This document shows positions 42,104 to 59,367 of a stretch of DNA of 64,000 nucleotides, in pieces (position 1 is the first letter of the stretch; every line of letters begins with the position of its first letter). The DNA comes from Nitrospira sp. (lineage in GTDB: Bacteria; Nitrospirota; Nitrospiria; Nitrospirales; Nitrospiraceae). The DNA lies in NCBI GenBank assembly GCA_030123565.1, contig CP126122.1, positions 2,742,800 to 2,806,799 of the forward strand. The letters are read 5' to 3'. Both the position numbers and the translations under genes were made by a program. Below the pieces are notes generated by a model. The model ran no database searches. It saw only the letters and a program-made list of their open reading frames with translations, and was not told where the DNA came from.

Positions 42104-43239
42104 CGAATGCCCGTCGAATGGCCGTGGCCTGAGAGGGCACTGTGGACAGGCCCTTCCGTCACATCGTCGCGTTCGCTCCGAGCAAACGTCCGGTACAGGT
42201 CAACAAGGCGAGGGCCCCAGACCGCCAAGGAATATCGTTCTTCCACCGTTCGGCGACCGGCCCGCCCGATTCTCATGCGCAAGTCAGGCTGACGGCAGAG
42301 GCGTTCGAGACTGTCGTACCACTCTTCCTCGGTGGAGGCGAGAAACCCGTTTTCACCGTTCGTAATGATGTCGCGGTTGACCCCGACAGGCGAGGCCACG
42401 GCCGGTAAGCCCACCGCGAGATACTGCAGCAGCTTGAGCCCGCACTTGCCCCGCGCCCATTCCGTATCCTCAAGCGGCATCACGCCGATCGTGGCATCCC
42501 GTACATCAGACACCTCCCGCCGCAAATTCCACGGCCGGAACTCGAGGTCCACACCGGGCATTTGCGGAGGCTGCGAACAGACCACGCGGAGTCTCACGTG
42601 GAATCGTGATTGCAGTGCACGGAGGGCCGGCGCCAACAGGTCCAGATAGGCCAAGTTGTAGGCCAATCCTATCCACACAATGGTGATCGGCTCGGACGAA
42701 CGATCGGTCATACCGCCGAACCGGGATCGATCCGGAATGAATCGGTCTGTATCGACCACCGTCGGCACGACACAAACCCGAGACGAAAACTGTTTCGCAT
42801 AGGAAGCAAGCCGTTCATTTCCCACGATGGTTCCCGTCGCCATCGACAACAGAACAGGCATTTTCTTTTCGTGCCCGTGCGTCAGATAAATCGCATCGTC
42901 CATCTCGACCACCATGCGATACCGGCACCAGCGCAGCAGCCGTTCAGCCAACGGAGGCGCATAAGGAAAGAGCTGCCCTTCGATCACGACAAGATCCCGC
43001 CCACCCAGCGTCAGCAACGTCCACAGCCGTCTCAGAAAACGGGCGAGCACATAGGGAACTTTGAGCAACGTCCGCAACGCGGGCCGGCGCACCTCAAGAA
43101 TTGAGAAGTAGATCCCTCCAAACAGAGGATCCACACGACAGTCAATTCCTGCGGCTTGGAAATAAGGCAGGAATTGAAAGACGCGATAGCGACTGCTGGG
43201 ACCGATGATCGAGCTTTTCGAGAAATACGTGACCGTCAT
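42100..43239 (-). CDS. Glycosyltransferase family 4-like protein
   Basis: This 379-residue GT-B protein begins TVTYFSKSSIIGPSSRYRVF. Its C-terminal half has the donor site GLKLLQYLAVGLPAVASPVG and ENGFLASTEEEWYDSL. Its last ~25 residues are polar and probably disordered. It overlaps the WecA-like gene and is the first of five tightly packed genes. A 171-base gap separates it from the GT2 gene upstream, where base composition drops sharply. Confidence 0.92.
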   Translation of the reverse strand: MTVTYFSKSSIIGPSSRYRVFQFLPYFQAAGIDCRVDPLFGGIYFSILEVRRPALRTLLKVPYVLARFLRRLWTLLTLGGRDLVVIEGQLFPYAPPLAERLLRWCRYRMVVEMDDAIYLTHGHEKKMPVLLSMATGTIVGNERLASYAKQFSSRVCVVPTVVDTDRFIPDRSRFGGMTDRSSEPITIVWIGLAYNLAYLDLLAPALRALQSRFHVRLRVVCSQPPQMPGVDLEFRPWNLRREVSDVRDATIGVMPLEDTEWARGKCGLKLLQYLAVGLPAVASPVGVNRDIITNGENGFLASTEEEWYDSLERLCRQPDLRMRIGRAGRRTVEERYSLAVWGPRLVDLYRTFARSERDDVTEGPVHSALSGHGHSTGIR

Positions 43240-43410: not shown

Positions 43411-45267
43411 TTAAACCTGAATACTCCAATCTTCCCTTGAACACGTGAGCTGAGGATTGTAATACGGATCTCCTTGCTGAATACTTGCCCCCCACCGACT
43501 GATGAAGAATGCTGCATCTTCTCGAGAACGCCCTCCTTTTCTAGAGGCATTCTCATGATGAATCAACATCGCATCGGGGGTATAAATGATACGGTACCCT
43601 TCACAGATCAGACGCAGACATAGGTCGACATCGTTATATTCAACCTTCAATCGACACTCAAAACCTCCAATCTTAGAAAAGAGTCTCGCAGAGAGGAGCG
43701 TGCATGCACCTGTTACTGCACTACAATTTCGTGCAATATGAGGCAACCCATGGTAATGATCCACATCCCCACGAAGATGACGAAAGGCATGCCCCGCTAT
43801 TCCCCTGATACCAAGGACAACTCCCGCATGTTGTATCCTACCTGTTGGGTAAAGCAGCTTTGCTCCAACTGCCCCAACACCAATTCGCTGCGCCTGAGCC
43901 ACCATGACTGTAAGCCAGTCAGGAGAAATTACTTGAGTGTCGTCATTCAAAAACAAAAGAAACTCTCCCCGGGCTTTCGAAGCACCGTAATTATTAATCT
44001 GGGAAAAATTAAAAGGGCCGGGGAATCGATGAACCGACCACTTCCTAGAGAGCACTTTAAGGTATTCTTGTGCCTTCAAATCCCGACTCTCATTATCGAC
44101 AATAATAATCTCATACGAGGGATACGTTGTTAATTTTTCGATGCTCTGGATGCACCGTTGCAGCATATCCCAACGGTCTCTCGTAGGAATAATAATAGAG
44201 ACCAATGGCATACCCAAAGGATGAAATGTCACTTTGAACCTACCCGTTCCAACGCATAGCACATCTGCTCGTTCTCCTCGTCTGATTAAGGCGGCTCGGA
44301 TGGATTTCATCTGAGCATGGTTCCTCGATTGGTCGGATTCGGAGGACGTTTCTAACGGTCTACGTATGGTCCGACAGTGACAGAGCACTTTAGGGATGCG
44401 ACAGATTTTATTCGTCTCTTCCGTTGACCGCAGAACAAGATGGTACAGACCATCGTTCACGATATCTCCCCAATCTCCTCCGATACTCGAAAGAATTTGC
44501 TTCCGTATAATGTTGAAACGGCCGACATAATTCATCCCGATGAGAAGATCGGGGCTCCAACTCGGCTTGAAGAATGGATCTACAAACTCACCTTCTGCGC
44601 GAGCCGTATCTTCATCGCAGTAGAGAAAATCAAGATCTGAAGATTCCTGGAGCTGCATTGCCATAGAAAAAATCGCTTCTGGAGAAAGAAAACAATCCTC
44701 TGAAAGAAAACCTACAAACTCTCCCTGCACATGCTGGAGCACACAGGCAGCTCCTTGTTTCAGGATAGCAGCCGTCTTGAGTTGAATCCTGTGGTCTTTC
44801 ACTGAATACGATCCCACCACACGTTCCAGCATACTCATGGGAGAAAACTCGCTGATCACTAATAATCTCCAATATGGGTATACCTGAGCGCGAATTGATT
44901 CGATGGTCTCTCGCAATCCTTTTTCATCAACACGACTCACCATGAGTATGACAGTAATAACCTGTGGAGCGATCAGCCGTTCTGCAATACTGCGCATGTG
45001 GTGCAGGCTTTCTGAGGAAGGGCTGTGGCGTTTCCGCCAAACCTTATATTCCTTATCCCGCTGATGAAGTGAAAATGGAAGCGCGGAAAGTTGTCCAGAG
45101 GCAAGGCTGAGAAGTTTAACAAGACCTTTTCTTAGGCATGTCCAGGCCCCTTCACTTTCAAAAATTCCCTTCACGCGCCCCAGAAACCAACGAATAGTCA
45201 ACCGTTCGCTCTGAGAGGAATGAGAGGGATTTTCTAAATGTCTTTCATCGTTCACCGGATTCATCAC
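43411..45267 (-). CDS. Glycosyltransferase family 2 with two tandem catalytic-like domains
   Basis: This 618-residue protein has two GT-A regions. The first (about 100-300) has the fold but few clear motifs (VITVILMVSRVDEKGLRE, DFLYCDEDTA). The second (about 350-580) has a clear start LVSIIIPTRDRWDMLQRCIQ, the DxD-type LFLNDDTQV and a late EVEYNDVDLCLR-like stretch (VEYNDVDLCLRL). It could add a rhamnose- or hexose-type unit to a growing chain. Both halves may be active or the first may be structural. Its base composition is much lower in GC than most of the window (23 G/C in the 60 bases at 44101), a sign of transfer. Confidence 0.9.
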   Translation of the reverse strand: MMNPVNDERHLENPSHSSQSERLTIRWFLGRVKGIFESEGAWTCLRKGLVKLLSLASGQLSALPFSLHQRDKEYKVWRKRHSPSSESLHHMRSIAERLIAPQVITVILMVSRVDEKGLRETIESIRAQVYPYWRLLVISEFSPMSMLERVVGSYSVKDHRIQLKTAAILKQGAACVLQHVQGEFVGFLSEDCFLSPEAIFSMAMQLQESSDLDFLYCDEDTARAEGEFVDPFFKPSWSPDLLIGMNYVGRFNIIRKQILSSIGGDWGDIVNDGLYHLVLRSTEETNKICRIPKVLCHCRTIRRPLETSSESDQSRNHAQMKSIRAALIRRGERADVLCVGTGRFKVTFHPLGMPLVSIIIPTRDRWDMLQRCIQSIEKLTTYPSYEIIIVDNESRDLKAQEYLKVLSRKWSVHRFPGPFNFSQINNYGASKARGEFLLFLNDDTQVISPDWLTVMVAQAQRIGVGAVGAKLLYPTGRIQHAGVVLGIRGIAGHAFRHLRGDVDHYHGLPHIARNCSAVTGACTLLSARLFSKIGGFECRLKVEYNDVDLCLRLICEGYRIIYTPDAMLIHHENASRKGGRSREDAAFFISRWGASIQQGDPYYNPQLTCSREDWSIQV

Positions 45268-45419: not shown

Positions 45420-46784
45420 CTACTCGTTCACAAAAAGTTGCCTAAAAGGATAGGCCAGCTTCCTGATAAGACCCTTAAGCCTTGGGTAATGACTGAGCCA
45501 GAAACGCCACATCGTCGTTAACCGCCATCCATGGTAGCGAGCAATTGACCGGAGGTCGCCCCATATTGATCGTGGGATAACGGCATGAATTCCAGACGCC
45601 CCAAGAGCCTCAAAGCCCTGCACTGCAGAAAGTCCGTTCTTTGCTCGTAGTGTTGCCTCAAGGAATTGCCGCTTGAAATGCCTATCCGGCTCTAAGTGAC
45701 AACCTTCTGCCCACTCATTCCAGGCATTAATAAACACAAATCGATCCTCACTCCGACGCGATTTCATGGTGCAGTCCAACGTTTTCGACAGCCAGTATTC
45801 GTAGTTATGTGGTGTTCCGTTCAGCACAATGAGAGCCCGCTCACGGGCACGAGCCGTATTGTCCCAGGACGGGAATACAGTCTTGAAGACATTTTGGTCG
45901 TGGTACTGACGAGCCAGATAGGACTGTGCGATATCCTGATAGTCTATAGCATTACCATAGAATTGGTCGTAGAACTCAATGCGGTCGTTAACGTTACGAC
46001 AATGAAGATTGTGTGGAGGAAATTCAACACCGCTATCAAAGCCGAACTGGCAATATTTTTCATTGCCATGGGTAAGCGCGGCACAGATATGAATCTTTCC
46101 AATACCCACCTTCTCACAATACTCTCGCCACACCTGCACCGTCCGGCGAGGGTCCGGCAAATGCTGAGGTCGGTACACAATAAGGAACGGTGCTCCGTCG
46201 ACCTTGATATAGCGTGGATCCAGAAAGAATGGGATCAGACTCTTAATAAAATTCAGGTCGTCATCGGGTAGATATTTTTGACTGATGAGAATCTGATGTT
46301 CAGCTGCGTCCCATCGTCTAGTCCAATTTTCATTTGCCCAGCAAAGACAAAACGGCATCTCACTTTCTCGATCGGATAACATCTCGTCGAGCGGTCGATT
46401 TAAGATACGCGTGCCAGAGAACCAATAATAGTGATAACAGAATCCGTCAATACCATACTGTTTGGCGAGCCGGATCTGCTCCTGGCGAGTTTCTCGCAGA
46501 CGTAGATCATAGAAACCCAAATCTGTCGGCAGGTGAGGTTGATAATGCCCATTGAACAGCGGGGATGCCTTCGTCACATTGGTCCATTCCGTGAACCCTT
46601 TTCCCCACCAGCGATCATTTTCTGGAGTAGGGTGAAACTGAGTGAGAAAGAAGGCGATTAGTCGTACCCCGTCCAAGGCTCGTGAATATGAGGCATGAGA
46701 CTCCAAGGTTGAAACAGAATGGTCCTCCTCGCCCGATAAATGCATCATATCGTTATTGATAGACATACTCTCAGTGGCTTCCAT
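45420..46784 (-). CDS. WbsX-like glycoside hydrolase/glycosyltransferase family protein
   Basis: This 454-residue protein has the WbsX pattern: FLTQFHPTPENDRWWGKGFT, EWTNVTKASPLFNGHYQPHL, then YGIDGFCYHYYWFSG and LCWANENWTRRW. The fold is a TIM barrel related to GH99. WbsX proteins occur in O-antigen clusters and their exact reaction is debated. The translational start is uncertain; ATG 46784 directly follows the preceding stop, and 46766 is an alternative. It is AT-rich like its neighbours. Confidence 0.9.
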   Translation of the reverse strand: MEATESMSINNDMMHLSGEEDHSVSTLESHASYSRALDGVRLIAFFLTQFHPTPENDRWWGKGFTEWTNVTKASPLFNGHYQPHLPTDLGFYDLRLRETRQEQIRLAKQYGIDGFCYHYYWFSGTRILNRPLDEMLSDRESEMPFCLCWANENWTRRWDAAEHQILISQKYLPDDDLNFIKSLIPFFLDPRYIKVDGAPFLIVYRPQHLPDPRRTVQVWREYCEKVGIGKIHICAALTHGNEKYCQFGFDSGVEFPPHNLHCRNVNDRIEFYDQFYGNAIDYQDIAQSYLARQYHDQNVFKTVFPSWDNTARARERALIVLNGTPHNYEYWLSKTLDCTMKSRRSEDRFVFINAWNEWAEGCHLEPDRHFKRQFLEATLRAKNGLSAVQGFEALGASGIHAVIPRSIWGDLRSIARYHGWRLTTMWRFWLSHYPRLKGLIRKLAYPFRQLFVNE

Positions 46785-47660
46785 CTATACTGTCCAATGA
46801 AGGCGTCGTATTAACTTTTGTAACATCAAGCGGGCTTCTGGACTTATATGTTTACGAACCCATGCTCTAACGATACTCACGCATCTATTCCAAAACATGG
46901 TGCGTTGGATGGTACTACAGCCTCCTTTGGATCCTACCGCGAGTGACCATAGTGAAATTCTGTCGCCTTTGTATTCATTCGGTACGGCCTTCAGCACGAC
47001 CTGATAGACCTCGCGAAAAGGATTAGTCGACAGAGCGAGCCGAACACTTTCCGGAATTCTCTCCCATCGTTCAGCAAATTCTGTTGCTTCGGGGGCACGT
47101 ATCACGAATTCAGCATGAACAATCTTTAGCCCTGCCTGATCAAACAATGCCTGCATATTCTTAATGCCAAAAAACCGTATATGTGTCCTGTCCAATAATC
47201 CCCAATCTCGATAATCAAAATCCTCTTCCATTAAGCAGGCAACTATTGCAGAGTGCCCAACATGCGGAAGCGAGACAACTATACATCCCTGCTCGTTAAC
47301 CAGCGGTTTCATCGCCTCGAGAACTGCCAAGGGATTGTACAGATGCTCCAGCACATCAGCTGCCAGTACAACATCAAACTTCCCTTCACTCCTGATGCGT
47401 TCAGACCAGGAAGTATCGTTCAAGTCGATCTGATAAACTCGCTCACAAAACATCGCGAGCTTTTTGATCGCCTTAGGATCTACTTCGAGTGCTGTCACTT
47501 GGCAATCACTACGGTCTCGGAGAACACGAGCAATCGACCCAGGCCCCGCGCCGACCTCCAATACTTTTTTCTCGGAACCAATCAAGCGCACGACACGGGC
47601 AGGAGCGGTGTCACCATTCAGGTCAACGGTGTATTCGTACTTATGAGGCATTTCTAACAT
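46785..47660 (-). CDS. SAM-dependent methyltransferase (class I)
   Basis: This 291-residue protein has SAM motif I KVLEVGAGPGSIARVL, motif II TALEVDP and the segment FDVVLAADVLEHLYNP, typical of the Methyltransf_23/UbiG-like group. In this operon it likely methylates a sugar or the terminal residue of a glycan. The last ~60 residues lack the SAM fold and may contact the acceptor. Acceptor identity cannot be read from sequence. Confidence 0.9.
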   Translation of the reverse strand: MLEMPHKYEYTVDLNGDTAPARVVRLIGSEKKVLEVGAGPGSIARVLRDRSDCQVTALEVDPKAIKKLAMFCERVYQIDLNDTSWSERIRSEGKFDVVLAADVLEHLYNPLAVLEAMKPLVNEQGCIVVSLPHVGHSAIVACLMEEDFDYRDWGLLDRTHIRFFGIKNMQALFDQAGLKIVHAEFVIRAPEATEFAERWERIPESVRLALSTNPFREVYQVVLKAVPNEYKGDRISLWSLAVGSKGGCSTIQRTMFWNRCVSIVRAWVRKHISPEARLMLQKLIRRLHWTV

Positions 47661-47705: not shown

Positions 47706-48635
47706 CTATAGCGCGTCCTTTTCAGTTTTCTGCCAGTAGACACCTACACCATCTATCTCTTTCACTTCTGGAGTAAGCCCCTTCTTGGCTATGAACTCAT
47801 CGATCGCCATTTTACAGCCCTGCACTACATGATAGTCATCGACAATGACGTAACCGCCAATAGAAAGCCTTTCGTACAGATTCCTTAAAGCAAGAATGGT
47901 GGACTCGTACATGTCTCCATCCAATCTCAGTATTGCCAAAGAATCGATGGGGGCGGTTGGCAGGGTGTCCTTAAACCAGCCGTTTAAGAACACCAGTTGG
48001 TTATCAAGCAGGCCATACTTCTCAAAGTTATGCTTAACTTCATCCATAGAAACAGCCAGATCCTGATAAGTATAGAATTTATCGTGCTCATCGGCTGGAT
48101 AGCGTGTGACATCAGGTCGTGGCAGCCCCTCAAATGAATCGGCAATCCAGACACGACGATTTTCGATACCGTGCGCATACAGGACAGCCCGCATCAAAAT
48201 ACACGCACCACCACGCCACACTCCTGTCTCAATGAGATCACCCGGAACGTCATTGGCAATCACATCCTCAATAAGCAGACGGAGGTTGTTAAGCCGTCTG
48301 GTTCCGACCATGGTATGCGCCTGACTGGGCCAATCCCACCCATACTCCCGCAATGTGGCATCATATCGGTCTTGGCCCAATACCTTCAGTGGAGGGTCTT
48401 CGTAAATAGTTCCTGTTAAACAGCTCACCATCAGCGATAAATATTCGTCTCGGATTCGTTGCATCTCCTGAATATGTTTCCTCTCCGCTTGCCTCGATCT
48501 CCCAATCGTTGTAACCAAAGGAAGCATTTCGACGACGCCACGAGCGATGCGCCTCACTATGCGCATCGTTCTCGTGGACGTGAATGCACTACGGTCTTTT
48601 CTAAATTTACTTTGCCTCACCAATCTTTCCATCAT
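47706..48635 (-). CDS. TylF/MycF-type sugar O-methyltransferase
   Basis: This 309-residue enzyme has the macrocin O-methyltransferase layout: LIETGVWRGGACILMRAVL (SAM site), WIADSFEGLP, then LDGDMYESTILALRNLY and VIVDDYHVVQGCKMA. TylF-type enzymes methylate sugar hydroxyls and need a divalent metal. It overlaps the Wzt-like gene by ATGA. In ABC-exported O-antigens, terminal methylation can act as the length-stop recognised by the Wzt C-terminal domain, which fits this pair. Confidence 0.93.
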   Translation of the reverse strand: MMERLVRQSKFRKDRSAFTSTRTMRIVRRIARGVVEMLPLVTTIGRSRQAERKHIQEMQRIRDEYLSLMVSCLTGTIYEDPPLKVLGQDRYDATLREYGWDWPSQAHTMVGTRRLNNLRLLIEDVIANDVPGDLIETGVWRGGACILMRAVLYAHGIENRRVWIADSFEGLPRPDVTRYPADEHDKFYTYQDLAVSMDEVKHNFEKYGLLDNQLVFLNGWFKDTLPTAPIDSLAILRLDGDMYESTILALRNLYERLSIGGYVIVDDYHVVQGCKMAIDEFIAKKGLTPEVKEIDGVGVYWQKTEKDAL

Positions 48636-50017
48636 GAAACCAATGCATTCTCTGATGGATACACTTTACGAATTTCAATCTGACCAAACGGAAGCCCAAC
48701 TAACCCGGTCGACGTACTAGTCGCTTTGGATTCCAGCTTGAATGCGTCATGAATCCACTGTAGCTGCACATGCTCGGAAGGGGTACCGTCTGCAACCGCA
48801 ACATCCGCTGAATAGAGACCTTGAGGCAAGATGGGCATTTGAAATGGGAATACTGCGACGGCCCGCTCGCCAGCACTAAAAGAGATTGGAGAGTCGATTG
48901 TAGCCAAATAAGTATTATCTCCAAACAGAATTTGGCCTAGCCTGTCTTTGATAAAAAAACCGACTACGACACGACGAATAGGCACACAGACGATAAATTC
49001 AATAGCCACACACACAGACTCTCCCCCAATCACCCAAGACAATTCTCGCCCAGACTTTTGCTCCAAAAGGCATGCATAAACAATGCGTACACCACCGGCT
49101 CCAAAACCACGCCCATTGCCTCTAAAAGAAAACACCTCAATGTCATTGCGCAACTTTGATTGATTGATAAAGTCGAGTCGCATATCGTGCAACGGAGTAT
49201 TCCCTTGACCGTACTCCATATCAGACTTGACAAGATGGCCTTGAGTGGAGAAAACATTAAATTGATGCTCGCTAGCTAGATAACGCTCACATACCATCTT
49301 TGCAGAACCTTGCATTTGAATTTGTCCATTTTCCAGCCAGAGCGTTTTCTTGCAAAGATTGAGGACCGCCGCTGAATCGTGACTGACGAACAACACCGTC
49401 CCTTGCTCCATGAAATTTCTCAGGAAACGCATGCATTTTTGAACGAAGAACGCATCTCCAACTGCCAGCGCCTCGTCAATGACCAGAATGTCCGCGTTCA
49501 CGTGAGCCATAACCGCGAAAGCCAGCCGAACGATCATCCCGCTCGAATAGGTTTTCACCGGCTGATCGATCGCGGCACCGATGTCGGCAAACGCCAGCAT
49601 ATCGTCTAGTTTTGCTTCGATATCCTGCTGCAGTAGTCCAAGCAACATCCCGTTCAGAAAGACATTCTCACGCCCTGTAAATTCGGGATGAAACCCCGCA
49701 CCGAGTTCCAAGAGAGCGGCCATGCGGCCGTTGATTTCGACGGTTCCGTTCGTCGGGCTCAGCGTTCCCACGATCAATTGCAGGAGCGTGGATTTACCCG
49801 ACCCGTTTCGCCCGATAATTCCAAGTGTTTCCCCCTTCTTGACCTCGAACGAGACGTTCTCAACCGCGAGCACTTCACGATAATACTGCGTACAGGTGAA
49901 TCCGAGACACTTCTGCAGCGGGGGCAGAATCCACTGTTTGCCACGGTCACGCGGACGGTCATACAACCGATAAGCTTTGGACAGATTGCAAACTCTGATC
50001 GCCCAATCAGAGGACAT
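48632..50017 (-). CDS. wzt: O-antigen ABC exporter ATPase with carbohydrate-binding tail (Wzt)
   Basis: This ~461-residue protein from ATG 50017 has Walker A GIIGRNGSGKSTLLQLI, a KTYSSGMIVRLAFAVMA signature and Walker B ADILVIDEALAVGDAFF, followed by a C-terminal domain of about 200 residues. The latter resembles the Wzt-C jelly roll that recognises the glycan end. It pairs with the permease upstream, overlapping it by 11 bases. The methyltransferases downstream may make the recognised cap. An earlier start at 50068 lies within the permease gene. Confidence 0.92.
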   Translation of the reverse strand: MSSDWAIRVCNLSKAYRLYDRPRDRGKQWILPPLQKCLGFTCTQYYREVLAVENVSFEVKKGETLGIIGRNGSGKSTLLQLIVGTLSPTNGTVEINGRMAALLELGAGFHPEFTGRENVFLNGMLLGLLQQDIEAKLDDMLAFADIGAAIDQPVKTYSSGMIVRLAFAVMAHVNADILVIDEALAVGDAFFVQKCMRFLRNFMEQGTVLFVSHDSAAVLNLCKKTLWLENGQIQMQGSAKMVCERYLASEHQFNVFSTQGHLVKSDMEYGQGNTPLHDMRLDFINQSKLRNDIEVFSFRGNGRGFGAGGVRIVYACLLEQKSGRELSWVIGGESVCVAIEFIVCVPIRRVVVGFFIKDRLGQILFGDNTYLATIDSPISFSAGERAVAVFPFQMPILPQGLYSADVAVADGTPSEHVQLQWIHDAFKLESKATSTSTGLVGLPFGQIEIRKVYPSENALVS

Positions 50018-50831
50018 CGGCGAAGGCCTTCCTTGTTTTTTGAAACCACAGCAGCCCAAGCCATGCAACGAGATAGCTACACAGACAATAGACTCCGATG
50101 CCGACCCAGGATGGAGCCTTGCCCCAGATGAGCAAATCCTGAGCTTGCGTGATCAGAAAGGTGAGAGGATTCGCATACAGCAGGGTTCGGTAGGACTCTG
50201 GAAATGCCGACATCGGATAAAAGATGGGCGAGAGAAACAACATCACGGTTGTGAGCGGTCCACTCGCTTGGCCGATATCCCGGACAAATACGCCGGCGGA
50301 GGCAAGAAACCAGGAAATCCCGACGGTGAGCAATGTCAGCGGCAGCAACAACAGGGGCAAGAACAACATCGTCCAATGGAGGGCCTGATGCAACAGCCCA
50401 TAAAACATGATCAACACCAGTGCGCTCATCCCGGCGTGAAAGAGAGCCGCGCCCAGTGAGGTCCAGGCGAGAACCTCCAGGGGAAAGACGACCTTCTTGA
50501 CGTAGTTGCTGTGATTCACAATCAGATAGGGCGCACGGTGGACACACTCTGAAAACAAGGCGTGTAGGATCAAGCCGGAGAACAGCAGTAGGCCGAAATC
50601 GAATGCGCTCTCGCCTTCCAGCCCCCATCGCATTCCAAAGGCTCCCCTGAATACGATCGTATAGACTGCCAACATGACCATCGGATGCAGGAGGGCCCAC
50701 AGGACACCGAGCAGGGACCCTCGGTATCGGCTCGTGATCTCCCGCTTGGTCAATTGCCTGATTAAGTCCCAATGAGCGCTCATACTGGTGAGCACCATGA
50801 GGGGAGAGAGACGGTATTGCTGCGACAACAT
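50007..50831 (-). CDS. wzm: O-antigen/polysaccharide ABC exporter permease (Wzm)
   Basis: This ~274-residue ABC-2 permease has about six hydrophobic segments and the family N-terminus LIRQLTKREITSRYRGSLLG, then VLWALLHPMVMLAVYTIVF. ATG 50831 has gaagg upstream and is preferred over TTG 50849. Together with Wzt it flips the lipid-linked polymer to the periplasm. Their presence argues for the ABC-exporter glycan route rather than Wzx/Wzy. Confidence 0.93.
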   Translation of the reverse strand: MLSQQYRLSPLMVLTSMSAHWDLIRQLTKREITSRYRGSLLGVLWALLHPMVMLAVYTIVFRGAFGMRWGLEGESAFDFGLLLFSGLILHALFSECVHRAPYLIVNHSNYVKKVVFPLEVLAWTSLGAALFHAGMSALVLIMFYGLLHQALHWTMLFLPLLLLPLTLLTVGISWFLASAGVFVRDIGQASGPLTTVMLFLSPIFYPMSAFPESYRTLLYANPLTFLITQAQDLLIWGKAPSWVGIGVYCLCSYLVAWLGLLWFQKTRKAFADVL

Positions 50832-50884
50832 CGAGTAGCCTTCGGCCAAGACAACCGCAGCCGAGATACGGCACCACCGTTGCG

Positions 50885-51649
50885 TTAAAAATCTCGTTGC
50901 TGAAAAATCAGGCAGGCTCCGCTGAGCAACACACCCGCGTAGGCCAATCCATACAGCGATGCGAGTATCAGGTATTCCGGCGCCACCAGAATGCCCACTG
51001 CAGCCTGCCCTTTGATATTGAGCATCTCCAAATTCGGACAGAGGTAATACAAAACGTCCACCAGCGCCTTCGCTGCCCCGCCCTCGCTGTTCGATGTCAG
51101 ACCTCTCAGGTCAGCCGTCAGATGCCCGATCACATAGATGCCCAGCGTCAGAATGGCGCTCAGCGTCGTGGAACTGAAGGTCGAGAAGAAGAGTGCGACC
51201 GCCGTGACCACGAGGATCTCGATGAAGATCAGTTGCACGGATTGAAAGAGGGAGGGCTCGATCGGCACATGGTAGAGCCAGAGCGTAATGAGAAAAACTC
51301 CCAGCATGATCGCCATGTTTACGAATAACGTCAGCACCAACCCGAAGTACTTTCCTAAAATGAAGTAGGTACGGCTGATGGGCCTGGCCATGATCGTGTA
51401 GATCGTGCGCCGTTCGATTTCCTTGTTCACCAAACTGATGCCGATGAAGATCGCGATGGTGACGCCGATGAGATTGATCGCCGCCAATCCCATATCAGCG
51501 ATCATCTTGTGGTGCTCGGTGATGGTCAGGTCTGCCAGTAACACGGACAGGCCGATGAGCAACCCGGCGAACAACACCAGATTGTAAAGGATCTTGTCCC
51601 GAAGGCTTTCACGGAACGCGTTCAACGCAATGACTCCGATCGCACCCAT
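50885..51649 (-). CDS. ABC-2 type transporter permease
   Basis: This ~254-residue protein has six hydrophobic segments and the motif GISLVNKEIERRTIYTIMAR of ABC-2 permeases, followed by RPISRTYFILGKYFG. ATG 51649 is chosen because it lies just after the ATPase stop and has ggagg ten bases upstream. It pairs with the following ATPase. Substrate is unknown; the position next to glycan and O-antigen-ligase genes suggests an envelope role, but these NatB-like permeases serve many purposes. Confidence 0.88.
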   Translation of the reverse strand: MGAIGVIALNAFRESLRDKILYNLVLFAGLLIGLSVLLADLTITEHHKMIADMGLAAINLIGVTIAIFIGISLVNKEIERRTIYTIMARPISRTYFILGKYFGLVLTLFVNMAIMLGVFLITLWLYHVPIEPSLFQSVQLIFIEILVVTAVALFFSTFSSTTLSAILTLGIYVIGHLTADLRGLTSNSEGGAAKALVDVLYYLCPNLEMLNIKGQAAVGILVAPEYLILASLYGLAYAGVLLSGACLIFQQRDF

Positions 51650-51650
51650 A

Positions 51651-52622
51651 TCAGGATGCCCTCCCGCTACACATCGACGGCTGAACACGCGAAACCTCAT
51701 GTGCAGCCTCCTGAAAAAACAGATCTTCCAACGACGCTTTATGCGGCGTCACAGAGAGGAGCCGCCCTCCTTGACGCCTGATCTCGCCCACCACGACATC
51801 CACCGCATCCGGGTTTGGTAAGACGATCAGGCATTGCTGGCCCTGTTGCAGCACACGCGTGGCAAGTGAGTGGATGAAGGCATTGCCTTCCGCCTTGATC
51901 TGCCGACACACGATCTCCACGGACTGCGTATGGTCTTGCCGGACCAGTTCATCGACCCGCCCACTGGCGAGCAACCGTCCCTTCATCACAATGCCGACAC
52001 GGTCGCAGATCATTTCCACATCATGCAAAATGTGTGTGCTGAAAAAGATCGTCTTGCCTCGATCGCGCAGGCTCAGAATCAGGTCTCGCACCTGTTTTCT
52101 CCCGACCGGGTCTAACCCGGTCATCGGCTCGTCGAGGATGACGAGTTCCGGATCATGAATCAGCGCTTGAGCGAGTCCGATGCGTTGCAACATCCCCTTC
52201 GAAAATTTGCGCAATTGCCTGGTTCGCGCGTCGCTGAGCCCGACGAGGCGCAACAAATCGGTCACCCGCTGGGTAATGACCGCACGTTCCAATCCGGCAA
52301 GTTGCCCGTAAAAGCCGAGAAACTCCTCGGCCGTGAGATAGTCGTAAAAATAGGGCGACTCCGGCAAGAAACCGATCCGGCTGCGGGTAGCCACATCGCC
52401 TGCAGGCTGTCCCAGCAAGAGCGCACGTCCGCTGGTCGCACGGACCAAGCCCATGAGAATTTTCAATGTCGTCGTCTTGCCGGCCCCATTTGGGCCAAGA
52501 AAACCAAAAATTTCTCCTCGCTCGACCGTCAAAGAAAGCCCATCAAGCGCCACGAACGGCGGTCGCCCAGGCCAGCCGGGAGCATACGACTTTGTAAGAC
52601 CCTCGATGACGATGTCGTTCAC
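51651..52622 (-). CDS. ABC transporter ATP-binding protein (ABC-2 type)
   Basis: This ~323-residue ATPase has Walker A FLGPNGAGKTTTLKILMG, a signature in RKFSKGMLQRIGLAQALI, Walker B ELVILDEPMTGLDP and the switch STHILHDVEMICDR. The GTG at 52622 is chosen because aggagg lies nine bases upstream; the ATG at 52640 would put that ribosome binding site inside the coding region. Its C-terminal ~90 residues resemble the DUF4162 region of NatA-type ATPases. It is paired with the permease that follows. Confidence 0.9.
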   Translation of the reverse strand: MNDIVIEGLTKSYAPGWPGRPPFVALDGLSLTVERGEIFGFLGPNGAGKTTTLKILMGLVRATSGRALLLGQPAGDVATRSRIGFLPESPYFYDYLTAEEFLGFYGQLAGLERAVITQRVTDLLRLVGLSDARTRQLRKFSKGMLQRIGLAQALIHDPELVILDEPMTGLDPVGRKQVRDLILSLRDRGKTIFFSTHILHDVEMICDRVGIVMKGRLLASGRVDELVRQDHTQSVEIVCRQIKAEGNAFIHSLATRVLQQGQQCLIVLPNPDAVDVVVGEIRRQGGRLLSVTPHKASLEDLFFQEAAHEVSRVQPSMCSGRAS

Positions 52623-52636
52623 AAGACAATTCCTCC

Positions 52637-53602
52637 TCACTGTAGAGCAGGCTGTTGCGTGGCGATTGAGTCAGGTTCTGCTTGAGGACGGGATCCCCCT
52701 GTCCCTACTCGGCAGGCCACCTTTTCATGAATGCGAAGCCGTTCGCGCTTAGACGTCACACCGACCGAACCGGTCATATAATCGATTTGGTATTGACCAC
52801 CTAACGGATCCACAGGCAGCTGCTGAATCACGCCGTGCAACAACAGATCGTCAAGCTTCGCCGGAACCTGCCCATACTTGGCCCGGTAACGGCGGACACC
52901 CTCTTCCAGGAACCGCAGATCCTTCTCCTGAACAATTTCTTTCATCCTGTCGACAAGGGCCTCACGAACCCGTTCATCAGTCACGGTGCGAGAGAATCGA
53001 TCGAGGAATTCGAGCGCCGCAGTGGGATCACCACTCTCAACCGTCATGCGGGCAGCCAAGCGGGGGAGATATGCCGGAGCACCAGGCACCTGCGCCGCAA
53101 TTCGAAGATATTCTCCACCAGCAATCGGATTGCAGAGTTCATAATAAGAGATGTATCCGGCCAAAAACGGCAGCTGCCAAGTCGACTGGTTGTGGCTGAT
53201 GCCCTTGCTCAAGATGGCAAGCCCTTCCTCATGACGACCGACCAGGACCCCAAGGAAAATCCCGGTCGCCTGATAGGGAGGGACAAACGTGGGATCCAAA
53301 TCCGTCAATACATCGACGGCATGGTAGGTCCAACGATATCCAAGCTGCGTATCGCGTTTCGCTCCGATGTGCTGGACTGCCTGCAGCCAAATCAGGTCCG
53401 CAACCACCTGCCGGTAACCGAGTACTGCCAACTTCAAATATTCCCCCTTGGGGAGATAGGCCAGCTGCTCAGCCCGCGCAATCGCATTCCGTTCATGATC
53501 CAGAACATGGAGCAGTCCTGATGCCACGGCCAACAGGCTCAGCCCGCAGAAGGCATGGAGCACTCCCCGCTTCACTGCCGCAATGGATCCGGCGAGCTTC
53601 AC
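52637..53602 (-). CDS. Membrane-anchored TPR-like protein of unknown function
   Basis: This 321-residue protein has one N-terminal hydrophobic segment (about 10-32) and helical repeats with YLKLAVLGYRQVVADLIWLQ, a motif that recurs in proteins next to ABC-2 transporters. The GTG start overlaps the preceding stop as GTGA. It ends in a charged, Pro/Ser/Gln-rich tail. It probably acts as a periplasmic scaffold for the nearby transporter. The function is not known. Confidence 0.7.
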   Translation of the reverse strand: MKLAGSIAAVKRGVLHAFCGLSLLAVASGLLHVLDHERNAIARAEQLAYLPKGEYLKLAVLGYRQVVADLIWLQAVQHIGAKRDTQLGYRWTYHAVDVLTDLDPTFVPPYQATGIFLGVLVGRHEEGLAILSKGISHNQSTWQLPFLAGYISYYELCNPIAGGEYLRIAAQVPGAPAYLPRLAARMTVESGDPTAALEFLDRFSRTVTDERVREALVDRMKEIVQEKDLRFLEEGVRRYRAKYGQVPAKLDDLLLHGVIQQLPVDPLGGQYQIDYMTGSVGVTSKRERLRIHEKVACRVGTGGSRPQAEPDSIATQQPALQ

Positions 53603-55596
53603 CCGGCTGACTCCTTTTCTCCAACGGCAGTTCGGAGGGCGGTGACGTCGACATTCAGGAATACATGGTCGAGACTATTTTTCTGCCACTGCTTGTAGCG
53701 CGTTTGACGTTCCTGAATTTCACGCAGCTGAGCCTTCGCGCCTTCCACCTGGCCCTCATCAACCCACAATTGAGCCAGCAGTACGCGCGCCGGAAGAAAA
53801 TTCGGTTCTAAGGTTTCCGCCTCTTTCGCTCGACGCTCGGCCTCGCCCCGTTTTCCAAGCTGCCAGTAGAGCCGTGCTTGTTCGTATCGATACATCGCCG
53901 AGAACGGTGCCAATTGGATGGCTTGCTCATAGACCAGTACCGCGGCAGCCAACCAAACTCTTCGTTGTTCATTCGAAATCCCAGAGGTGTATGGAGCCCG
54001 TGCAGCCGAAACGTAGAGTTGTCCCAACAGGCCTAACAAGCGACCGTCCAGCGGGTTCAGTGCGATGGCTTCCTTGAACTCTGCATGGGCGTCTTGGAAT
54101 GCCCTGTTCTCGCCCGTTGTCTCAAACACCCTCGCGTAGACCGACCCGAGACCGTGATGGTACAGCGATTTTCCGGGGTCCAAAGCGACCGCGTCCTTCA
54201 ATCTCTTGATCGCCGCATTCGTTTCTCCCGCCATGGCATGGCGGGAGGCAGACTCGAACGTCATCCAGGCAAGCCCGAACCGAATCACTTCCATACAGAC
54301 TATCAACAACAGGCTCGCCGCACTGATTCCCCACAGGATTCGCGAACGGATCAATATGACGTGAACGGGAAACGGTTCGCCCCTGACCAAACGCCCGGCG
54401 GACACAATCAATGCGCCACAGAGAACCAGCATGATCGCAATAGCTGACTCCCGGAGGCTCGAATCGAGTGCGGCATGGACCAGAAGCGCAACTCCCCCAC
54501 CACTCCCCCCAACCATGAGGCTTCTCTGCCAACGCAACAGTCGTCCCCGCAACACTTGCATCAACTCTCTCGCCAACATAACGATCCCGAGCACAAACAG
54601 GAGGATCGCTGCTGGCCCCATCTCGACACCCATTTGCAGATAATCGTTGTGCGGGGTCTGCGCGACCTTTCCATAGCGAGAAATTTCCCCTTCCACAGGG
54701 AAGGCATAGCGGGGATATGTGTACTGATAGAGTCCCAGGCCGATTCCGAACGGATGGTCGATCATTTGGCGAACGGCCCCTTGCCACATCCGCCAACGAG
54801 CATAGGCAGCAGGATTCTGCTGATGTTCAGCGAACACACGATCGCGGAACGGCGAGGGAATCAGGAGAACAATGACAACAAGAAGTACACCGCAGGTACC
54901 CGCTGTTTTCCAGCCACGGCGGATGGTCAGAATGAATATCGTCGCCACAAACAAGACGACCATGCCACCCCGAGACTGAGTCAACAGGACCGCGAAGAGT
55001 ACGCCGCACAATGCCGAACCAAGGCCAAACCACCAGATCACGGCTGGCACCGACGACATGAAAAACATCGACCGTCGTCGATATCCATACAGTGCGCAAC
55101 TCAGGAGGATCGCCCAGGTTACCGTGAGGTATCCGGCCAGAAAATTCGGGTTGAAGAAGGTTCCACTAGGCCTCGCAACCTGCCACGCCAGTCCTTGCAT
55201 GATGGCCCAGCCCGCTTCGCCTAAACCCATCAGCACGATCATCACGGCCAACGTACGAACATGCTCCCACCGGTCAATGAAAGAGACAAGCAAATAGAAA
55301 AACGTGACGTACCCGACGATCATCAGTAGCCATTGCCGACTCGGATGAGCATAGGGCGAGAAGAGCGTCGCCACCATGGCAAGACCGACAAACGACAATA
55401 CAAGGTATCCCATCGGAAGCGCCGGCACGGTGAGAGTTCCATTTCGAATTCCCTTCGCCAGAACGACTCCCAGCCACAGCGCAATCAACAAGCGAATGAC
55501 CATCTGGGCCTGGTGAGTCGTTCCTCCCTCCTGAAGCGGCGAGAAGATTACGAGTGCACCGATCACTACTAGGGGAATGCCAGAGAGGATTTTCAT
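53599..55596 (-). CDS. O-antigen ligase/polymerase family membrane protein with TPR tail
   Basis: This ~665-residue protein from ATG 55596 has about 12 hydrophobic segments in its first ~430 residues and the Wzy_C-type periplasmic signature QTPHNDYLQMGVEMG, preceded by ARWRMWQGAVRQMIDHPFGI. The last ~220 residues are TPR repeats (DPGKSLYHHGLGSVYARVFE, ALNPLDGRLLGLLGQLY). The family includes O-antigen ligase, Wzy polymerase and PglL/PilO pilin oligosaccharyltransferases. It sits directly downstream of two pilin genes, which favours a role on pili; see findings. The start is uncertain because no strong ribosome binding site is visible. Confidence 0.88.
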   Translation of the reverse strand: MKILSGIPLVVIGALVIFSPLQEGGTTHQAQMVIRLLIALWLGVVLAKGIRNGTLTVPALPMGYLVLSFVGLAMVATLFSPYAHPSRQWLLMIVGYVTFFYLLVSFIDRWEHVRTLAVMIVLMGLGEAGWAIMQGLAWQVARPSGTFFNPNFLAGYLTVTWAILLSCALYGYRRRSMFFMSSVPAVIWWFGLGSALCGVLFAVLLTQSRGGMVVLFVATIFILTIRRGWKTAGTCGVLLVVIVLLIPSPFRDRVFAEHQQNPAAYARWRMWQGAVRQMIDHPFGIGLGLYQYTYPRYAFPVEGEISRYGKVAQTPHNDYLQMGVEMGPAAILLFVLGIVMLARELMQVLRGRLLRWQRSLMVGGSGGGVALLVHAALDSSLRESAIAIMLVLCGALIVSAGRLVRGEPFPVHVILIRSRILWGISAASLLLIVCMEVIRFGLAWMTFESASRHAMAGETNAAIKRLKDAVALDPGKSLYHHGLGSVYARVFETTGENRAFQDAHAEFKEAIALNPLDGRLLGLLGQLYVSAARAPYTSGISNEQRRVWLAAAVLVYEQAIQLAPFSAMYRYEQARLYWQLGKRGEAERRAKEAETLEPNFLPARVLLAQLWVDEGQVEGAKAQLREIQERQTRYKQWQKNSLDHVFLNVDVTALRTAVGEKESAG

Positions 55597-55757
55597 TGCC
55601 GTTATCCGAACAGTCGACGCAAGAGCGCCCTCAAGCTGTATCAGAGACCTGACAATTGACAAAGAAAATTTGAATACTAATGCGTGGAGCAGGGGATCGT
55701 AAGAGGATTTCCCTGGTGCTGAACGGAGCCTACATTGACACATCAGACAGAACGAAC

Positions 55758-55786
55758 ACGGGGAAGGGACATGGTCCCTCCCCCGT
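55758..55786 (-). terminator. Stem-loop terminator after the downstream pilin gene
   Basis: A 13-bp stem with one mismatch and a 3-base loop (arms 55758-55770 and 55774-55786) begins 26 bases after the pilin stop. On the minus strand it is followed by gttcgttctgtctg, moderately T-rich. It probably separates strong pilin expression from the glycan genes downstream. Confidence 0.65.
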
Positions 55787-55811
55787 ACCGAAGCCCACCT
55801 TCAAGGAATCG

Positions 55812-56354
55812 TTACTGGATCACATCATCAGGAACAGCCTGGGTCAGCCCCCCCTTGACATCATTCACCGACCAACCGTCGATGGTTGGATCATTGTCGA
55901 TGCTGGCCACTGCCGAAGCCGTGAAGCCCACCGCGCCGGCCGCCGTGCTGGCATTAGATGGCACTGCCGGAGCCGCGTCGGACGACGCCGTACAGCCAGC
56001 CGGAGCACCGCAACTTATCTGATCATAAGGGGTGGTCATGCCAACCGTATAGACCGCACCGCCAGATGGAGCATTTCCGCCAGGAGCAGGACTGCGATAG
56101 GTGTAACGGTTCGTCGTCCCGGCCAGGGCGTACCCGATTTCAGAAAAGCTTCCGTATCGAGATTGTTCACTGAGATAGGCTGTCTCCGCCACGAAAATCG
56201 CGCCGAGGTTAGTCTTGGCTTCCGACTGTCTTGACTTCGCCTGGTAGCGCAAGAAGTTGGGAATGGCGATCGCCGCCAAGATACCGATGATCGCCACGAC
56301 GATCATCAACTCAATCAAGGTAAAACCCTTTTGCCCTTTGACTTGCTTCAACAT
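55812..56354 (-). CDS. Type IV pilin (PilA-like), copy 1
   Basis: This 180-residue prepilin has a short basic leader ([10 protein letters not shown]) and the cleavage and methylation site G-FTLIE followed by the hydrophobic helix [20 protein letters not shown]. Glu5 of the mature protein is present. The C-terminal half has a short disulfide-type loop SCGAPAGC and is rich in Ala, Ser and Thr, so it could carry O-linked sugars. It is the second of two tandem pilins on the minus strand and has a probable sigma-54 promoter 105-120 bases upstream. Both share [11 protein letters not shown] and NRYTYR. Confidence 0.95.
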
Positions 56355-56458
56355 GGATGTCCTCCCTTTCCTATTGTTGTTCCTTCATCCCGGCACTGAC
56401 GTTCTTTCACGGCTCGTTTCACAAAACAGCTTGTTCAAGCCTAGCAGATCAGGGGAAA

Positions 56459-56474
56459 AGCAGATTCTGTGCCC
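56459..56474 (-). promoter_or_regulatory. Probable sigma-54 (-24/-12) promoter of pilin copy 1
   Basis: On the minus strand the site reads gGGCAC-N5-CTGCT with exact GG-N10-GC spacing (GG 56473-56472, GC 56461-56460). The start would be about 95 bases before the pilin ATG. Pilin genes in many bacteria are sigma-54 and PilR dependent, which adds weight. Confidence 0.6.
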
Positions 56475-56609
56475 AACACCTCCTTCCTAATTTCTTTACG
56501 ATTTCTCAGCCACTTATGACTGCTGGGTATGCGATCTCGGTAACCAACACCTTTATCGGTTCCCTTTTTCCGTCATCTTCTGCCAAGTTTTGGCGCACTA
56601 CCACCGTTC

Positions 56610-57134
56610 TCAGCTTGAAACATCGTTGGGCTGTGCCCCGCTCAATCCTTGTTTCGCATCGTTGACATACCACCCGTCGTGCGTGGCATCACCGTCGAGG
56701 TTCGCCGCTGCGGTCGCGGTAAACCCTGTCATAGATGTCGTCGCGTTCCCGACCGTTCCGGTGAAGGTCACAACTCCTGCCATGGGAACTTCCGTCTGAA
56801 TCGTATCGCAACTGCCTGAGGCCCCACAGAGATTGCCGCCGTTCGGACCAAGCCCGGCACCAACACCCGCACCTGTTCGATAGGTGTAGCGATTTGTCGC
56901 ATTACCAGCCAAGACAAAGCCGATATCCGAGAAATTCCCAAACTGCTCCCGCTCGCTGAAAAACGCCGTCTCCGCCACGAAAATTGCTACCAGATTCGAC
57001 CGCGCCTCCGCCTGAGTCGCCTGTACCCGGTATCGAAGAAAATTCGGCATTGCGATGGCTGCCACAATGCCCAAGATAGCAACCACAATCATTAATTCGA
57101 TCAGTGTGAACCCTCGGTCTTTCGATAGCATCAC
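56610..57134 (-). CDS. Type IV pilin (PilA-like), copy 2
   Basis: This 174-residue prepilin has a short leader (MMLSKDRG) and the site G-FTLIE followed by LMIVVAILGIVAAIAMPNFL. Glu5 is present. The C-terminal region carries the same short disulfide-type loop (LCGASGSC) and shares DGWxVNDxKxGL with copy 1, so the two are diverged tandem paralogs. A probable sigma-54 promoter lies upstream. One may be the major pilin and the other a minor or alternate pilin; I cannot tell which. Confidence 0.95.
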   Translation of the reverse strand: MMLSKDRGFTLIELMIVVAILGIVAAIAMPNFLRYRVQATQAEARSNLVAIFVAETAFFSEREQFGNFSDIGFVLAGNATNRYTYRTGAGVGAGLGPNGGNLCGASGSCDTIQTEVPMAGVVTFTGTVGNATTSMTGFTATAAANLDGDATHDGWYVNDAKQGLSGAQPNDVSS

Positions 57135-57218: not shown

Positions 57219-57234
57219 AGCAGACCCTATGCCA
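57219..57234 (-). promoter_or_regulatory. Probable sigma-54 (-24/-12) promoter of pilin copy 2
   Basis: On the minus strand the site reads TGGCAT-N5-CTGCT with exact GG-N10-GC spacing (GG 57233-57232, GC 57221-57220). The start would be about 75 bases before ATG 57134. The -12 region TCTGCTT is identical to that before pilin copy 1. Confidence 0.6.
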
Positions 57235-57510
57235 AAGAACTCCCCTATACAGAACAGCTCATAACATATTGTCGTTATTGAATTTTTCAGTTGATACCTT
57301 GCGTCGTAACAGAACGAGTCCGATCAGGAATGTTGAATCTGGAAAGAAAAGTGCCAAAATTTGGCTGAAGCGAACAGCCTCGGTCGTCACGCCCCTCCCG
57401 AAGACGAAGGTGGCTGTAACTCTATTTTCAGGATCAGTCAAACGAGTGAGGCTTGCCCGAGAGGGAAAAGAACTGCGAGCGAAAAGGCGGACTGGTCGGC
57501 GAGGGATTAA
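57235..57510. other. AT-rich intergenic stretch upstream of the pilins
   Basis: With 57135-57234 it makes a 376-base gap between pilin copy 2 and the TPR gene. Open frames exist on both strands but lack family resemblance or ribosome binding sites. It could hold the upstream activator (PilR-type) sites of the pilin promoter; I could not identify a repeat pair by eye. Confidence 0.45.
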
Positions 57511-59367
57511 TTATTGGGTCGATGTGGTCGTCTTACGGTCGGAAACGCGGCGAATGGCCTGACGGATGCGTTCTTCTTTGGTGGGATCGCCCAAACCAAG
57601 TTCACGGAAACGCTGCATCAGCTTGTCGTTCGAGGGATCGAGTTCCAGTGAATGCAAAAGGGCTTCTCGCCCCTCAGAAAAGGATTGTTGTTTCAAATAA
57701 ATCTCACCCAGGTGCTCATAGATCACGGGATCATCACCGACCAACGCCACAGCCCGCTTCATTTCAGTCAAGGCTTCGGTCAGTAACCCCTTCTTGAAGA
57801 AGGCCCAGGCGAGACTATCGACGTAATACCCGTTGGTCGGCCGGAGTGCGACGGCCTGCTTCGTCAGCCTAATCGCCTCTTCGATTTTCACGCCACGTTC
57901 CGCATAGCTATAGCCCAGGTAGTTCAGCGCATCCGCGTGATGGGGATCCAATGTGAGCGTCTCCTCCATCGCCTTCACCACATCGTCGAACCGGTTCAAT
58001 TTGTCGTAGGCCGTACCGGCATTGAAATGCAGGTCCGCGTTGTCCGGATTGTAGCGAATCCCTTCCAGGAAGGCCTGAAGGGACGGTTCATATTGCTCCG
58101 CTTGAAAATGCGAGAGCCCGAGGACGATATGGGCCTCCGGCTGCTTGGGATTCAATCGGCTGGCCTCTCGAAGGTGTTGGATCGCATCGGCATAGTGCTT
58201 GAGTCGATACTGCAATATCCCCAGATGCAGGTGCCCCTCGAAATACGACGGCTCCAACGTAAGATTGTGCCGGTAGGCGTCGATCGCCTTGGCGTAATCC
58301 TTGGTCTCTTCATACAGGTACCCCAGATAGTCGCGCACCTTGAGTTCAGCCGGACGCACCGTGAGGATCTGATTCAACTGTTGAATGGCCTTGGGATAGT
58401 TTTTCTGCTCTCCGTAGACGAGCCCCATCCTGAGTTGGGCATCGAGATCCGACGGATCCTCCGCCAGCATTCCCTCCAACTCTTGAAGCGCTTCGTCATA
58501 CTGTTTCGCCGACACTTGCAGCCGAATGAGGTGGTGTCGGATTTCCCGATTCTTGGGATTCACTCCCTGCAAGTATCGGCGATAGATGTCGATAGCTTTC
58601 TCACGGTCTTGCTTCGCTTCGTAGACCGACCCCAATGCCACGTACGCCGGCTCAAACGCCGGATTCAACGTGACCGCCTGCTCGAAATGCGCCGTCGCCC
58701 GATCAAAATCCCTTGCCTCGACCCCAATTCGACCTAAATAGTAATAGCCCACCGCCGAGTCGGGGCTCACCTTGATCCCGGACCGAATCGTGTCTTCCGC
58801 TTCGGCGTACTGTTTCTGGTTGGCGAGCAACAATCCCTTGGCAAAGAAATGTTCGCTTCGCTGCGGCTCCTGCTGGATGGCGCGATTGAACAACCGCAAC
58901 GCCTTATCCGGCTTTCCTGCGGCGGCATACATTCCGCCGATTTGACCGAGCATCTGGGCGTCCAAATCCGGCGCATCGGCCACTTCATCGGCAAACCGCA
59001 CGGCTGCAGGCACATCTCCGGCCGCGAAATACAGCACGGCCAGCCGAGCCTTCAGATAATTGGACGAAGGATCGGTCTGAAGCGCGAGTTGATACTCCTT
59101 AATAGCTTGCTCCGTCTCCTGCTCCAACTCGGCCTGATACCCGAGCATGAAGTGATACGAGGCACGGGAATCGGAAGATGGTGCCATGGCACGGGGAGGC
59201 GTCGGCGAAACCGTCGGGACCACAGGCGGAGCGGGACGAGCGGTCGGGGCGCTGTGACAGGCCGCAGCGAAGCACGAGAGGGCGGCCAGCAGAACCGCCG
59301 CGCTCCTCACCCCGGCACCCCCTCGCGGGACGCACGGTCGCCGAAAATCTTCACCCAATCGTTGCAC
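57511..59367 (-). CDS. TPR-repeat lipoprotein
   Basis: This 618-residue protein has a signal region with lipobox FAAAC (Cys37), a Pro-rich spacer and at least twelve TPR units of 34 residues (for example PAYVALGSVYEAKQDREKAI, DALNYLGYSYAERGVKIEEA). The GTG start at 59367 is uncertain; an in-frame GTG at 59310 would give a shorter, more typical signal. Large TPR lipoproteins of this kind are often outer-membrane scaffolds for pilus or polysaccharide secretion, and the neighbours fit, but this is inference. Confidence 0.88.
   Translation of the reverse strand: MQRLGEDFRRPCVPRGGAGVRSAAVLLAALSCFAAACHSAPTARPAPPVVPTVSPTPPRAMAPSSDSRASYHFMLGYQAELEQETEQAIKEYQLALQTDPSSNYLKARLAVLYFAAGDVPAAVRFADEVADAPDLDAQMLGQIGGMYAAAGKPDKALRLFNRAIQQEPQRSEHFFAKGLLLANQKQYAEAEDTIRSGIKVSPDSAVGYYYLGRIGVEARDFDRATAHFEQAVTLNPAFEPAYVALGSVYEAKQDREKAIDIYRRYLQGVNPKNREIRHHLIRLQVSAKQYDEALQELEGMLAEDPSDLDAQLRMGLVYGEQKNYPKAIQQLNQILTVRPAELKVRDYLGYLYEETKDYAKAIDAYRHNLTLEPSYFEGHLHLGILQYRLKHYADAIQHLREASRLNPKQPEAHIVLGLSHFQAEQYEPSLQAFLEGIRYNPDNADLHFNAGTAYDKLNRFDDVVKAMEETLTLDPHHADALNYLGYSYAERGVKIEEAIRLTKQAVALRPTNGYYVDSLAWAFFKKGLLTEALTEMKRAVALVGDDPVIYEHLGEIYLKQQSFSEGREALLHSLELDPSNDKLMQRFRELGLGDPTKEERIRQAIRRVSDRKTTTSTQ

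Follow-up and report, generated by a model that had tools for sequence, protein, structure and literature searches.

A Wzy_C-family protein with a TPR tail, encoded in an exchangeable pilin cassette of Nitrospira, as a candidate pilin O-oligosaccharyltransferase

In Pseudomonas, pilA-tfpO cassettes are exchanged horizontally against other pilin alleles (PMC12369383; PMC5331068). TfpO and TfpM are often encoded beside their own pilin and lack the PglL_A and Wzy_C_2 domains, and the acceptor pilin ends in Ser for TfpO and in Ser or Thr for TfpM (PMC12645811). In Myxococcus xanthus, pilG, pilH, and pilI were reported to form an ATP-binding cassette (ABC)-type system essential for pilin passage across the inner membrane (PMC3724824). 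Here, we analyzed a 64,000-nucleotide stretch of a Nitrospira sp. genome (contig CP126122.1, positions 2,742,800 to 2,806,799; hereafter the window), in which a Wzy_C-family protein with a C-terminal tetratricopeptide repeat (TPR) tail is encoded downstream of two type IV pilins. We favor the reading that this Wzy_C-TPR protein is a pilin-specific O-oligosaccharyltransferase, similar in action to TfpO/PilO and equipped with a TPR tail, and consider it somewhat probable.

The locus is similar to the group I pilA-tfpO locus of P. aeruginosa in that a Wzy_C/WaaL-like gene without PglL_A and Wzy_C_2 lies directly 3' of a pilin gene (PMC12645811), and in that strains swap a pilin allele jointly with its partner gene (PMC12369383; PMC5331068). 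It differs in its TPR tail, tandem pilins, PilGHI-like genes, full glycan cluster, and phylum, as well as in the (N/D)DV tails of its pilins, which end in Ser/Thr only sometimes. Cassettes that pair a pilin with a Wzy_C-type enzyme are already known; what is new, within the limits of our check, is the TPR tail, the partnership with PilGHI, the presence of glycan genes in the cassette, and the phylum. A search of the available literature on Nitrospira, type IV pili, and glycosylation returned nothing relevant.

On the minus strand of the window, the order is a TPR protein, two type IV pilin genes, the Wzy_C-TPR gene, PilG-, PilH-, and PilI-like genes, Wzm, Wzt, and glycan genes extending to about 38500. 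The initial annotation had pointed out the tandem pilins directly 5' of a Wzy_C-family gene, the TPR tail, and a glycan cluster continuing on the same strand, and family matches confirmed all three; the three pilG-, pilH-, and pilI-like genes between Wzy_C and Wzm had passed without comment. The core features are as follows.

56610..57134, minus strand, type IV pilin 1, mature form of 166 aa with the C-terminus ...NDVSS (N_methyl, 9.6e-11)
55812..56354, minus strand, type IV pilin 2, mature form of 170 aa with the C-terminus ...DDVIQ (N_methyl, 3.3e-10)
53599..55743, minus strand, Wzy_C/WaaL-fold ligase with C-terminal TPR tail, 714 codons (Pfam Wzy_C, 8.6e-22, and TPRs; alignment; AlphaFold2 model; 7tpg_B)
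52637..53602, minus strand, PilG-like protein with one transmembrane segment and TPR-like helices, no Pfam family (model; gene order)
51651..52640, minus strand, PilH-like ABC transporter ATPase (ABC_tran, 6e-29; synteny)
50885..51700, minus strand, PilI-like ABC-2 permease (ABC2_membrane_2, 8e-10; synteny)
50007..50849, minus strand, Wzm-type polysaccharide export permease (ABC2_membrane, 4e-24)
48632..50068, minus strand, Wzt-type ATPase with Wzt_C carbohydrate-binding domain (Wzt_C, 3e-27)

Gene order and its conservation, the modeled fold, the presence/absence pattern, and the co-exchange with pilin type were established computationally. Among Wzy_C-TPR orthologues with at least 1.2 kb of upstream sequence (n = 66), 65 had a pilin no more than 1.5 kb upstream and in the same orientation. 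A PilG-like gene lay directly 3' of Wzy_C in 61 of 62 loci, and the PilHI pair was found in 56 of 57. This neighborhood is kept across Nitrospirota and the phylum of a delta-proteobacterial metagenome-assembled genome; in the latter phylum, the top-scoring matches were nearly all adjacent to pilins, whereas lower-scoring Wzy_C proteins were not. The five other Wzy_C matches in the window genome had no pilin within about 1.5 kb. The pilin-linked proteins formed one clade apart from the unlinked ones (support 99.5 in a reduced 40-row tree), and in a larger tree the linked group, including that of locus L093, had a support of 90. The adjacency of pilin and Wzy_C exceeds chance. L093, from an unclassified bacterium, encodes a Wzy_C-TPR protein of the linked clade with no recognizable pilin in the 3.4 kb upstream. 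In L163, pilins precede and Wzm/Wzt follow the Wzy_C-TPR gene, no PilGHI was found, and the pilins differ in their tails and contain six cysteines.

We then compared 59 Nitrospiraceae genomes. Wzy_C-TPR was present in 32, all of which have PilG, and 17 had PilG without Wzy_C-TPR. These 17 Wzy_C-free loci occupy the same site, after serA-hisZ-dnaB-TPR protein, and encode one larger pilin, mostly with a C....F or C....Y tail, followed by different alleles of PilG, PilH, and PilI (the PilH frame was masked by a longer overlapping frame in four of them). Apart from the PilH match, no Wzm/Wzt was found in the 17 loci. In most of them a DegT aminotransferase or ilvD comes next, homologues, as judged from the N-termini, of the window genes at 37403-38518 and 24274-25944. 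The pilins and all that follows them down to about 38500 are thus present or absent as a unit. Since the DegT homologue adjoins PilI in cassette-free genomes, the window's DegT gene marks the right edge of the cassette; the TPR-repeat protein gene (57511..59367) is the conserved upstream flank, outside the exchanged cassette.

On a tree of flanking proteins, the Wzy_C state switches seven times, and six of these switches are forced by supported branches. By a pilin-tail rule set after the data had been seen, 52 of the 54 genomes had a tail type matching their Wzy_C state; in the other two, the pilin reading frame is either short (97 residues) or odd. Over six independent pairs, the tail shifted along with Wzy_C in 5.7 on average and never in the opposite direction (median sign p 0.031, range to 0.125). 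The trees of PilG, PilH, and PilI each required one change (support 98-100), whereas those of DnaB and the TPR protein required 6-7 (7 for the latter), which indicates that the cassette was swapped in one piece; horizontal transfer is the simplest explanation. We conclude that pilin, Wzy_C, PilGHI, and the glycan genes form an exchangeable cassette. N. defluvii (L041), which is in culture, is among its carriers.

The start of the Wzy_C gene is probably at Met50, at about 55596, because the alignment with orthologues other than those of the closest relatives begins only near residue 55. Sequence searches of solved structures gave no match for the membrane part, and a profile retrieved TPR proteins only, so that a structure comparison was needed. 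An AlphaFold2 model built with 35 orthologues reached a pLDDT (predicted local distance difference test) of 90. Model residues 1-406 matched the WaaL ligase 7tpg_B (Z 27.3, 372 residues aligned, root-mean-square deviation 4.2), and residues 435-665 formed a separate TPR domain. His365 (open-frame numbering) is invariant and sits in an HN-x9-G loop, which is also present in E. coli WaaL and in most alignment rows; Arg302 and Arg316, like this His, are invariant among 15 diverse orthologues. From the hydrophobic helices after the catalytic loop, counted by eye, the TPR tail is predicted to face the periplasm, the same side as the globular domains of the pilins.

In fold (residues 50-455) and loop the protein is like WaaL (7tpg; E. 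coli WaaL). It departs from the core-only architecture of WaaL, which lacks a soluble C-terminal domain. It agrees with TfpO and TfpM in combining Wzy_C with a WaaL-like fold, in lacking PglL_A and Wzy_C_2, and in being encoded close to a pilin in the same direction. With PglL and PglS it shares the Wzy_C superfamily and, putatively, pilin-like acceptors; PglL_A (PF15864) and Wzy_C_2 (PF11846) gave no match in it at E <= 0.01, and identity with PglL was rejected on this ground. A PglL_A search of 148 genomes also gave no match, as did its control, and says nothing on absence. The WaaL fold is common to TfpO, TfpM, and WaaL. Of the enzymes named in the initial annotation, PglL can therefore be struck out, and the fold fits both TfpO and WaaL. 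The suggestion of a pilin-modifying role gained strong circumstantial support from the adjacency across phyla, the co-exchange with pilin type, and the joint absence with the glycan cluster.

The Ser/Thr-rich C-terminal halves of the pilins, also noted initially, proved to be a moderate enrichment. Past mature residue 54, Ser and Thr make up 19-21% of the window pilins, compared with 15% of the pilins encoded at sister loci that lack Wzy_C; for linked and unlinked pilins the values were 21% and 15%, respectively, kinship not being corrected for. Pilin 1 ends in SS and pilin 2 in IQ, and the endings are mixed among Wzy_C-linked pilins. Pilin 1 shares 94% identity with its counterpart in genome G105 (L013), while the adjoining Wzy_C proteins are just 66% identical and pilin 1 proteins of other members of the genus are about 70-77% identical to it; this suggests that pilin 1 alone recombined recently. 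Sigma54-like promoter sites precede both window pilins, and equivalents precede 68 of 85 Nitrospirota pilins. The motif by itself lacks significance, with 3 sites in the window against 2 expected, and only the conserved position of the site in relatives carries information.

By gene order and protein type, the three genes at 52637..53602, 51651..52640, and 50885..51700 are most likely PilG, PilH, and PilI. As in M. xanthus pilA-pilGHI, a protein with one transmembrane segment, an ABC ATPase, and an ABC-2 permease follow the pilin in the same order; in the window, the Wzy_C-TPR gene stands between pilA and pilG. The assignment draws on locus L200, where a sigma54 response regulator is followed, in this order, by pilin, a PilG-like protein, ATPase, permease, and a prepilin-peptidase-like open reading frame, the last read from the sequence without a family match. 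Together, the window and L200 show the arrangement of these three protein types after pilA and before pilD. Fold searching with the model of the PilG-like protein retrieved generic TPR-like structures and nothing else, with scores close to those of unrelated helical repeats. At its C-terminal end (LPxxPxGGxY...G), the PilG-like protein looks, by eye, similar to the C-terminus of GspG-type pseudopilins.

The cassette exchange as in Pseudomonas and the higher Ser/Thr content of linked pilins make a pilin O-oligosaccharyltransferase the best explanation. We infer its catalytic activity, its acceptor, the role and membrane side of its tail, and the source of its glycan along the following lines. 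The downstream cluster would build a lipid-linked glycan, started by the WecA-family protein, extended by glycosyltransferases, and capped by methylation, and Wzm/Wzt would export it. The WaaL-fold enzyme would then move the glycan, via its conserved His loop, onto Ser/Thr of a membrane-held pilin, whose globular domain may be held by the periplasmic TPR tail, perhaps by way of the conserved (N/D)DV C-terminus. PilG/H/I would serve as a pilus-biogenesis ABC system matched to the pilin of the cassette.

Several points weigh against this proposal. In the textbook O-antigen route, a WaaL-type ligase acts on what Wzm/Wzt exports. As pilin, PilGHI, and glycan genes move together, the co-occurrence of Wzy_C with the pilin may be hitch-hiking. 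Pilin 2 and some other linked pilins lack a terminal Ser/Thr, and to our knowledge TPR tails have not been described for TfpO.

A bolder version, possible and on balance doubtful, is that the protein represents a new class of pilin O-oligosaccharyltransferase, with a WaaL core and a periplasmic TPR receptor for an (N/D)DV tag, that works with pilin-matched PilGHI. A cassette of about 19 kb with its own glycan pathway would then have been swapped several times with an unglycosylated pilin cassette in Nitrospiraceae, probably changing phage or surface recognition. If pilin glycosylation is correct, type IV pili that are glycosylated by enzymes of their own exchangeable cassettes would occur beyond Pseudomonas, in the Nitrospirota (nitrite oxidizers) and delta-proteobacteria. 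It would also provide an enzyme with a separate acceptor-binding tail, open to study by itself, and would bear on the role of the pilus ABC genes pilGHI and on why Geobacter retains a polysaccharide cluster beside its pilin genes. Pairs of close relatives with and without the cassette make the prediction directly testable via pilin mass.

The alternative that survives best, although we regard it as unlikely, is a WaaL-type ligase that joins the polysaccharide exported by Wzm/Wzt to lipid A-core, with pilin and glycan genes swapped as one surface-antigen locus. WaaL is the best structural match, the block exchange weakens the argument from co-occurrence, and Wzt and Wzm lie within 9 kb in 30 and 33 of 39 loci, respectively, and are missing jointly with Wzy_C. 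The constant partners, however, are pilin and PilGHI: L055, L068, L083, L084, and L091 retain these and Wzy_C with no Wzm/Wzt within 9 kb, and in L158 the block shares a stretch with pilM where Wzm/Wzt was not found. Moreover, all 16 cassette-free genomes examined retain 1-5 other Wzy_C proteins, so that other ligase candidates exist. Neither 7tpg nor E. coli WaaL has the TPR tail of 230 residues, and the gene lies beside pilins, outside a lipopolysaccharide-core cluster.

Less probable still, the protein would polymerize or transfer an exopolysaccharide that is bound or anchored non-covalently to the pilus, as suggested for the Geobacter xap cluster. In G. sulfurreducens this polysaccharide cluster (GSU1498-1508), which includes an ABC transporter ATPase (xapD, GSU1501), lies directly 3' of pilA-C (PMC3495685; PMC8835794) and is needed in cytochrome anchoring and electrode growth (PMC3495685). 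The likeness to our locus is drawn via L206, which looks like Geobacter in this arrangement and encodes a 61-residue pilin, a small secreted protein, Wzy_C, and then PilH, PilI, and PilG; its Wzy_C is distant (66 bits, as against 255-634 for the linked clade). A Wzy polymerase is unnecessary for an ABC-exported polymer, so that Wzm/Wzt export argues for a ligase over a polymerase, and the link to the pilin tail type would be left unexplained. A convergent second recruitment of Wzy_C in the Geobacter-like L206 and L210, hinted at by a first tree, was not supported, as grouping them with the linked clade costs nothing (approximately unbiased test, p-AU 0.505).

Very improbable, finally, is a role in pilus biogenesis with ligase activity lost, in which the protein would work alongside PilGHI via its TPR tail: PilG follows Wzy_C almost always where the flank allows, and other transmembrane-TPR proteins fill the same slot in L207 and L209, but the invariant His and two Arg speak for retained catalysis. 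In the delta-proteobacterial loci L208 (5346-7124), L207 (5580-6167), and L209 (11120-12226), a membrane and TPR protein lies between pilin and PilH/PilI. Pfam gave only TPR matches for these proteins and no known family for their membrane domains; they are possibly another kind of glycosyltransferase. A TMTC-like O-mannosyltransferase was considered for this slot in L207-L209 and, given that Pfam matched TPRs alone, is not claimed.

The remaining features of the locus include the WecA-family protein, which is the probable initiator of the glycan.

57511..59367, minus strand, TPR-repeat protein with lipobox-like N-terminus (Pfam TPRs; kept in loci with and without Wzy_C)
57219..57235, minus strand, sigma54-like promoter site TTGGCATAGGGTCTGCT, 5' of pilin 1 (motif; equivalent sites in Nitrospirota)
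56459..56475, minus strand, sigma54-like promoter site with one mismatch, 5' of pilin 2 (motif)
55755..55789, minus strand, terminator/attenuator-like hairpin of 16 pairs between pilin 2 and the Wzy_C gene (consensus match only)
47706..48635, minus strand, TylF-family O-methyltransferase (1e-97)
46785..47660, minus strand, putative methyltransferase, named by sequence alone
45420..46784, minus strand, WbsX glycosyltransferase (4e-135)
43414..45267, minus strand, GT2 glycosyltransferase (1.4e-28)
42103..43239, minus strand, GT1-type glycosyltransferase (family match)
41051..42103, minus strand, WecA-family (Glycos_transf_4) lipid-phosphate sugar-1-phosphate transferase (2e-34)
39744..41051, minus strand, FAD amine-oxidase family protein of the glycan cluster (family match; a protein of the same type lies 3' of PilI in L158)
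38534..39727, minus strand, glycosyltransferase, final gene of the cassette (1e-31)
37403..38518, minus strand, DegT aminotransferase, right edge of the cassette (homologue adjoins PilI in cassette-free genomes)

Two of the loci compared, L060 and L073, are titled Nitrosospira and are clear Nitrospira loci; they are probably mislabeled bins.

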